From Desulfobacula sp. (GTDB lineage Bacteria; Desulfobacterota; Desulfobacteria; Desulfobacterales; Desulfobacteraceae), in contig JAMPXP010000001.1 of NCBI GenBank assembly GCA_023701135.1, forward strand, positions 1-64,000: DNA of 64,000 bases, read 5' to 3'. The translations under genes were made by a program, and so were the position numbers. Of this stretch, positions 513 to 34,868 are shown one piece after another; the first letter of the stretch is position 1; the number at the start of each line of letters is the position of its first letter. The notes below the pieces were generated by a model that worked only from the letters and a program-made list of their open reading frames with translations, had not been told where the DNA came from and searched no databases.

Positions 513-1643
513 ATGACATCCCTCAGCAGTGAATTAAAAATAAAAAACATGATGCTTCGAAACAGGCTGGTGCTGCCTCCCATCACCACCAATTACGGGT
601 CGTCCAAAGGCCTGGTGACCCAGGCGGTTCTTGATTTTTATCGGGACCGGGCAAAGGATGTGGGACTTGTCATTGTGGAAGCCACATCGGTGCAGGCTAC
701 AGGCCGGATTGTTCCCGGCAGCCTTGGGCTCTGGGACGACTCCCAGGTGTCCCCCATGGCCGGGCTGGTGAAAACCATACAGAAGCAGGGAGCCTCTGCC
801 TTGGTTCAGCTCAGCCATGCAGGCCCCAGGTGCCCGCCGGTTCCGGGCAAACGGCACGGGTTCTCTCCTTCCGGCGTGCGGTTCAGGCCCGATGTGGACC
901 CCATTGTCATGAATGCGGGGGATATCGGGCAATTGATCCGGGATTTTTCCAGGGCCGCCCTTAGGGCGCAAAAAGCCGGGTTTGACGGGGTTGAAATCCA
1001 TGGTGCCCACTTGTATCTGCTGAGCCAGTTTTTATCCCCCCTGACCAATCGGCGGGAAGACGAATATGGGGGGGATGCCAAGGGCCGGGCCTTCCTGGCC
1101 CTGGAAATCGTGAGAGAAGTGCGCAAAAACCTGGGGCCGGACTATCCCCTTTTTTTCCGGATCAATGCCGAAGAACGGATTCCCGGGGGATTGGTGCTTA
1201 AGGATGCCCTTGTCATGGCCAAATTGCTGAAGGATGCCGGGGTGGATGTGTTTGATGTGACCCTCATCGCCCAGGGCGGGTGGAAAGAGGCCGAGGGGAA
1301 AACCTGGCTCACGGGGTCATCGGCCCTGCCCAAGGATCTTCCCTCCGGCGCCAATGTGGCCCTGGCCGCGGCCTTTAAAAAAGAGACCGGTCTTCCCGTC
1401 ATTGCCGTGGGCAAATTCGGGATGGGAGATGCCGCCCTTTGTGCGGTGCAAGATGAGAATATTGATCTGATTGCCGTTGGACGCCAGATGATCTGTGATC
1501 CTGAAACCGCCAAAAAAATGCTGACGGAAAGGGACCTGGACATCATTGCCTGTGAGGAATGCCTGCAATGCTTTGCAAGTATTGGAAGGAGCGAGCCCAT
1601 GGCCTGCAAGATCAACCCGGATCTGCCCGGGGGCCGGTCCTAG
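513..1643 (+). CDS. NADH:flavin oxidoreductase / Old Yellow Enzyme family, single-domain with C-terminal Cys cluster
   Basis: OYE barrel motifs (VLPPITTNYG, GFDGVEIHGAHLYLLSQFLSPLTNRREDEYGG, IAVGRQMICDPE); CEECLQC-x11-C near the C-terminus; start placed at MTSLSSEL because of AGGAG upstream. Confidence 0.85.
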   Translation: MTSLSSELKIKNMMLRNRLVLPPITTNYGSSKGLVTQAVLDFYRDRAKDVGLVIVEATSVQATGRIVPGSLGLWDDSQVSPMAGLVKTIQKQGASALVQLSHAGPRCPPVPGKRHGFSPSGVRFRPDVDPIVMNAGDIGQLIRDFSRAALRAQKAGFDGVEIHGAHLYLLSQFLSPLTNRREDEYGGDAKGRAFLALEIVREVRKNLGPDYPLFFRINAEERIPGGLVLKDALVMAKLLKDAGVDVFDVTLIAQGGWKEAEGKTWLTGSSALPKDLPSGANVALAAAFKKETGLPVIAVGKFGMGDAALCAVQDENIDLIAVGRQMICDPETAKKMLTERDLDIIACEECLQCFASIGRSEPMACKINPDLPGGRS

Positions 1644-2959: not shown

Positions 2960-3667
2960 TTATGCTTCTCCCAGATAGCTTTTCCGGATTTGTTCCGAAT
3001 CCAGCAGATCGCAGGAATTGCCCTGGTGCACAATTTTGCCCAGCTCGATGACATAGGCCCGCTGGGTGATTTTCAGGGCTTTTTTAACATTCTGTTCCAC
3101 CAGCAGGATGGACAATCCGGTTTTATTCAATTCCCGGATGGTTTTAAAAATCTGGTTGACCAGGACCGGCGCCAGCCCCATGGACGGTTCGTCCAGGAAA
3201 AGCAGTTTGGGCCGCTTCATGAGCCCTCTGGCAATGGCCAGCATCTGCTGCTCCCCGCCGCTCAGGGTTCCTGCCTTTTGATTCCGGCGTTCGGCAAGGA
3301 TGGGGAACATTGCATAATATTTTTCCATGTCCCGGCGGATTTCCTTTTTGTCTTTTCTTCCAAAGGCCCCGATCTGCAGATTGGTTTCCACGGTTCTCTG
3401 GGTAAAGACCATGCGGCCTTCAGGCACATGGGAGATGCCCAGGTTCACGATTTTTTCCGGCGGCAGTCGGTTCAGGCTTTGGCCCTCAAAGGTCATGGTC
3501 CCGCCGGTGCTCTGAATCAAACCGGAAACCGTTTTCAGGAAGGTGGTTTTTCCGGCTCCGTTGGCGCCGATCAGGGCCACAATTTCACCTTGCCTGATTT
3601 CCAGGTCGATGCCGAAAAGCGCTTTGATCTTGCCGTAACCCGATTCCAGGGAATTGATGGTCAGCAT
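2960..3667 (-). CDS. livF: Branched-chain amino-acid ABC transporter ATP-binding protein (LivF)
   Basis: GANGAGKTT Walker A, LSGGEQQMLAIARGLM signature, operon context. Confidence 0.93.
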   Translation of the reverse strand: MLTINSLESGYGKIKALFGIDLEIRQGEIVALIGANGAGKTTFLKTVSGLIQSTGGTMTFEGQSLNRLPPEKIVNLGISHVPEGRMVFTQRTVETNLQIGAFGRKDKKEIRRDMEKYYAMFPILAERRNQKAGTLSGGEQQMLAIARGLMKRPKLLFLDEPSMGLAPVLVNQIFKTIRELNKTGLSILLVEQNVKKALKITQRAYVIELGKIVHQGNSCDLLDSEQIRKSYLGEA

Positions 3668-34423: not shown

Positions 34424-34720
34424 TCAAACGGCAAATTCGATAGTGTTATAATTATCCAAATCGATTTCTTTTCTTGCTTTCCAAAGATCATAATTATCCT
34501 GCATAAGCAACCAGCTCTCCGGTGATCTGCCTAATACAATGGATAGCTTTAAGGCCATTGCCGGTGATACATCAGTTTTCCCATTGATCAATCGGCTTAT
34601 CAACCCCGAGCTGACCTTTAATTTGCGGGCTAATTCATTTGAGCTGATATTATTTGGTTCCAAGTAAACTCTTTTTATAAACACCCCCGGATGAATAGGA
34701 TTGTGCTGTTGGATTTCCAT
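34424..34720 (-). CDS. higA: HigA family addiction-module antitoxin (XRE type)
   Basis: NPIHPGVFIKRVYLEPNNISSNELARKLKVSSGLISRLINGKTDVSPAMALKLSIVLGRSPESWLLMQDNYDLW. Confidence 0.9.
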   Translation of the reverse strand: MEIQQHNPIHPGVFIKRVYLEPNNISSNELARKLKVSSGLISRLINGKTDVSPAMALKLSIVLGRSPESWLLMQDNYDLWKARKEIDLDNYNTIEFAV

Positions 34721-34740
34721 TTTATCCCCCCCTCTTTTTT

Positions 34741-34830
34741 TTAATGATAATCTTCGTAATTGACCACATATGCGTGACCATCTTTAAACTCAAAAACAAC
34801 CCTCCCGTTATGCTTAAAACTTTTAATCAT
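34741..34830 (-). pseudogene. higB: HigB toxin with internal deletion; 29-aa remnant MIKSFKHNGRVVFEFKDGHAYVVNYEDYH
   Basis: Start (MIKSFKH) and end (FEFKDG.AYVVNYEDYH) of HigB joined in frame; central catalytic part missing; sits 20 nt before higA. Confidence 0.8.
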
Positions 34831-34854
34831 GGCATCATTTTACAAAGGTATTTA

Positions 34855-34868
34855 CTGTTATGCAACAG
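34855..34868. promoter_or_regulatory. Inverted repeat CTGTT-ATGC-AACAG, candidate HigA operator
   Basis: Immediately upstream of the higB remnant. Confidence 0.4.

Follow-up and report, generated by a model that had tools for sequence, protein, structure and literature searches.

A probable recent loss of the HigB toxin, leaving an orphan HigA antitoxin, in a marine Desulfobacula-like bacterium

Introduction

The closest described relative of the locus reported here is the Proteus vulgaris-type higBA module (PDB 4mct, 4mcx; PF05015 / TIGR02607), in which HigB is a growth-stopping toxin and HigA its antidote. Our locus, from a marine sulfate-reducing bacterium, shares with it the toxin-first gene order, the HigA family, both ends of HigB (MIKSFKH and NYEDYH) and an operator palindrome before higB; it differs in that 63 of the 92 toxin codons are deleted, so that a functional toxin is not expected.

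Antitoxins kept without an intact toxin are also known as orphan antitoxins or degraded type II modules (PMC7354431; marine survey PMC12654330), and HigA-1 ranks with the most frequent orphan antitoxins of marine genomes (PMC12654330). In contrast to those cases, where the origin of an orphan HigA usually has to be guessed, the step itself is visible in the present locus: the exact lesion can be placed, a near-intact sister allele exists and both toxin ends remain. A third relative, graTA of Pseudomonas putida, has a HigA-like antitoxin as well; toxin-free binding of the antitoxin to its own palindrome was shown there and is predicted here, whereas the toxin of graTA is intact and relieves repression via its disordered N-terminus (PMC6393540).

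What our locus offers is a clean example of the disassembly of a toxin-antitoxin pair, with the toxin lost first by one small deletion and the antidote and the control region left behind. To lose the antitoxin before the toxin would be harmful to the cell, and for this reason such modules are dismantled toxin first.

Results and Discussion

The short higB frame

In the window, by which we mean the whole 64-kb stretch of DNA analysed (64,000 nt), a frame of 29 codons plus TAA occupies positions 34741-34830 on the minus strand and translates as MIKSFKHNGRVVFEFKDGHAYVVNYEDYH, followed by the stop. It joins the start of HigB (about 7-9 head codons) to its end (20-22 tail codons) with 63 codons gone in frame, and in the tail the C-terminal strand is retained, down to the closing EDYH. 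Residues 6-29 align to the full-length HigBs of the genus at identities that reach 88% (E about 1e-10 for each genome), and on this comparison we regard the homology of the frame to HigB as certain. The PF05015 profile gave a sub-threshold 13.6 bits (E 0.099; cut-off 27) over profile positions 68-91 alone, a weak score that is expected of a fragment of 29 residues. The product is thus a HigB remnant and no member of PF05015, since the full RelE-like domain is missing. Among the plasmid tblastn matches listed for the 29-aa frame, most were annotated as RelE/ParE-family toxins.

An earlier reading of the locus, made from the sequence only, had described this frame as a higB reduced to its two ends by the in-frame removal of a roughly 60-residue middle, beside an intact higA. 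All of this was borne out, down to the exact coordinates with the stop included, by the complete 98-aa HigA next to it and by a base-for-base alignment to a sister genome on either side of the gap. The same reading had named a widely conserved 29-aa small gene as the finding that would overturn it. We reject such an independent conserved gene, since the frame is present in one genome only: neither the exact junction nor the short higB was met outside the window's own genome in a DNA search of 26 genus genomes, the short form was absent from the other family genomes in a protein search of 86 genomes, and a pattern search found no such frame elsewhere among the retrieved loci. As for a viral carrier, also rejected, viral contigs do not contain the exact junction, and the HigA relatives found there are at most 38% identical.

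The deletion and its age

The sister, Desulfobacula sp. SM1_1_2 (L033 = G013:C183), carries a 91-codon higB at the same chromosomal site. Two long blocks of the window align to it, one of 2156 columns at 95.1% identity and one of 3386 columns at 94.2% (about 5.5 kb together), and they are interrupted at the missing middle of higB alone, so that the remnant can be traced to a higB at this very site. Full-length higB (92 codons in the outgroups) stands at the same operon position in L034, L035, L037, L038, L040, L043-L045, L047, L048 and L052; that of L036 is two codons short. The search for a full-length higB in close relatives, proposed as a check by the sequence-only reading, has therefore yielded a near-full-length gene in the sister and full-length genes in the outgroups, which marks the short form as the derived one.

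The deletion measures 189 nt (63 codons) against the 92-codon HigB; in the comparison with the closest relative, which has a higB one codon short, it measures 186 nt. Modelled against L033, L034, L036 and L037, the junction falls at 34804-34811 (minus strand), its placement being ambiguous over a few bases. Two placements are equally good, each needing one substitution (the slash marks the junction): MIKSFKH/N(W->G)R.., where the ends share TAA, and MIKSFKH(K->N)G/RVV.., where they share GG, the latter being the choice of the sequence-only reading. The microhomology therefore amounts to 2-3 bases.

Could the assembler simply have dropped 189 bases from a genome that has a full-length higB? The genome is a draft in 42 contigs, and the assembly shows one more higB with an internal deletion, described below, which could hint at a systematic cause. 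Nevertheless, the junction shares no more than 2-3 bases and lies in no repeat, which makes a collapse of the assembly unlikely; two other higB genes of this genome (C24 and C2) were assembled intact, and the sequence on both sides runs collinear with that of the sister. We consider an assembly or sequencing artefact extremely improbable, and judging from the absence of a repeat at the junction, the collapse that had been named as a refuting outcome left no sign. A strain mixture or a local sequencing error behind the short higB is likewise no more than a formal possibility.

In the head and tail of the remnant together, two bases differ from the sister (one synonymous, one nonsynonymous), and in HigA five changes are synonymous and two nonsynonymous (dN 0.0086, dS 0.070). 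With so few differences, the deletion is a recent event when measured against the divergence within the genus.

On the solved structure of the Proteus vulgaris HigB, a protein of 92 residues, the removed part spans residues 8-70, i.e., most of the HigB fold. His54, a putative active-site residue, would lie within the deleted part of the Proteus protein. The N-terminal helix of HigB, described as important for ribosome recognition (PMC6393540), is lost nearly in full. Judged from these losses in the sequence, the 29-codon frame would be unable to form the HigB fold, and a functional toxin from it is very unlikely.

The orphan HigA and its control region

The adjoining higA (34424-34720, minus strand) encodes an intact antitoxin of 98 aa that belongs to the HigA family TIGR02607 (91.8 bits over residues 6-85; cut-off 47.7) and has relatives among the HigA chains of solved structure. 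Elsewhere in the genome PF05015 matched only the toxins at C24 and C2, each adjoining its own HigA, and no intact near copy of the locus was found there. HigA at 34424-34720 is therefore an orphan antitoxin: neither its neighbourhood nor the rest of the genome holds an intact gene for its cognate toxin.

Upstream of the remnant, at 34855-34868 (minus strand), lies the inverted repeat already pointed out in the sequence-only reading, an operator-like palindrome CTGTTGCATAACAG. Most relatives aligned conserve a TTTACTGTTGCACAACAGTAAA-like element in roughly the same position ahead of higB, and we predict it to be the operator that a functional higBA module has in the promoter before higB. The putative promoter (34837-34865, minus strand) consists of TTGCAT (34860-34865) inside the palindrome, a spacer of 17 nt and TAAAAT (34837-34842); it was read by eye from the alignment, a consensus promoter scan having missed it because the first hexamer, TTGCAT, is weak. 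HigA bound to the palindrome would presumably cover this promoter. The TAAAAT hexamer stands 6 nt ahead of the higB ATG, with the same spacing in the close Desulfobacula relatives L033-L037, and a -10-like hexamer so near the start suggests a leaderless toxin mRNA. On the other side, the likely ribosome-binding site of higA, AGAGGGGGGG (34726-34735, minus strand), lies in the 20 nt that separate the remnant from higA. The operator palindrome, the promoter spacing and the higA ribosome site are all left in place by the deletion.

Taken together, the locus is best explained, and in our judgement very probably, as a type II chromosomal higBA of a Desulfobacula-like bacterium that has recently lost its toxin, with HigA left as an orphan. 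One in-frame deletion of 189 nt, which probably arose at the 2-3 bases of microhomology, took out 63 of the 92 HigB codons and spared the promoter and operator upstream as well as the higA start and ribosome site downstream; given that these are untouched, HigA is probably still made and its own promoter still repressed. Operator binding by HigA-type antitoxins needs no toxin, and the Proteus HigB leaves the binding of HigA unchanged (PMC6393540). By analogy with such HigA/GraA proteins, HigA would bind 34855-34868 without a toxin, a probable self-repression, and its expression and autoregulation most likely survive. Of the two alternatives offered by the sequence-only reading, the first, a fresh toxin inactivation that leaves an orphan antitoxin, thus gains support from the syntenic sister higB, the full-length outgroups, the near-identical flanks and the conserved HigA and operator. 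As a first stage in the dismantling of a toxin-antitoxin pair, the locus is genuine yet unremarkable.

The orphan may persist because the loss is recent, because weak selection keeps it as a regulator, or because it protects against incoming HigB-type toxins. In a refinement of the toxin-loss explanation rather than a contradiction of it, HigA could be maintained by selection, either for an anti-addiction antidote or for the regulation of other genes, and such selection would favour deletions that spare higA and its promoter. This we regard as possible, if rather unlikely. It fits the strong conservation of HigA against the sister, the abundance of orphan HigA antitoxins in marine genomes (PMC12654330), the anti-addiction role proposed for orphan antitoxins (PMC7354431) and the two independent deletions in this genome that each spare the promoter region and higA. 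However, the divergence may for the most part be older than the deletion, so that conservation is no proof of present selection, one allele yields no rate, and CTGTTGCATAACAG occurs once in the window.

Decay of toxins in other loci

We surveyed the 80 HigA loci nearest to that of the window, of which four were cut by contig ends. Among the 76 assessable loci higB was full-length by the search criterion in 57 and broken or missing in 19, where the counts are of sequences, many from draft MAGs, and not of independent events. The defective genes carried 5' truncations or replacements, frameshifts and, in HTCC2207, a nonsense codon. When about 100 distinct HigA loci, most of them from the order, were surveyed in a second round, 60 had a full-length higB; no rate is to be drawn from this number, the remainder including other partner toxins and contig edges. 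Toxin-first decay of higBA is common. An internal higB deletion with both ends kept, in turn, was seen in both surveys in the window's genome only, and there twice.

The second gutted higB (G000:C8; L169) lacks 158 nt and has its frame broken, with the promoter, higA and the rest of the operon intact; the remnant starts at L169:1757 and the intact higA beside it lies at L169:1345-1626, both on the minus strand. That one genome holds two internally deleted higBs is the one mildly surprising point of our analysis, and it suggests a shared cause or selection sparing the antitoxin, on a comparison that is post hoc and of small numbers. One could go further and see in internal deletions that spare promoter, operator, the two toxin ends and the start of the antitoxin a favoured route of disarming HigBA in this lineage, with HigA a working repressor or antidote and the HigB-derived peptide possibly used; this seems to us very improbable.

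The C8 locus also bears on the other alternative of the sequence-only reading, a retained functional peptide: the 29-codon frame might be kept since its translation, ending 20 nt ahead of higA, sustains higA translation or mRNA stability, or since the peptide contacts HigA and tunes repression. The frame is indeed preserved together with its start, its stop and its spacing from higA, and the C-terminal strand and EDYH are present in the tail. A deletion is in frame by a chance of one in three in any case, so the kept frame is weak evidence either way. At C8, by contrast, the remnant is out of frame and higA is retained, which argues that higA can do without an open remnant; in relatives, too, many orphan higAs have only 5'-truncated or foreign sequence upstream. 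RNA folding showed no sign of a coupling via mRNA structure either, as the deletion is predicted to make the higA start easier to access in the mRNA rather than harder. Furthermore, the antitoxin-contact residues 34-49 of GraT (PMC6393540) would fall in the deleted part, if the numbering transfers. With the short frame in a single genome, toxin-free operator binding known (PMC6393540) and most of the HigB fold deleted, a retained function is highly improbable, and we keep to toxin loss as the explanation.

Other toxin-antitoxin genes of the same genome show decay as well. A yoeB-like toxin gene with a frameshift (L259, G000:C13 near 152745; 1050-1470, minus strand) adjoins an intact PhdYeFM antitoxin, and a short HigA fragment, MNRLKPITPGEILLEEFLKPTGISRLQFLAKIQPY (L256; G000:C13:46203-46280), adjoins an addiction-module-like small gene and is a more advanced stage of decay. 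The ParE/RelE-family matches over the cut-off in this genome are open frames without stops.

Two further alleles are worth recording. In L028 / L178 (G052:C42), an insertion of about 110 nt after codon 25 splits higB, and higA is intact. In the sister L033, where higB lies at about 2707-2979 and higA at 3001-3297, the higB stop reads AAA and one frame runs through KKRGGGK; a natural HigB-HigA fusion is possible, as is a low-coverage error, the coverage of the sister MAG being 3.5x.
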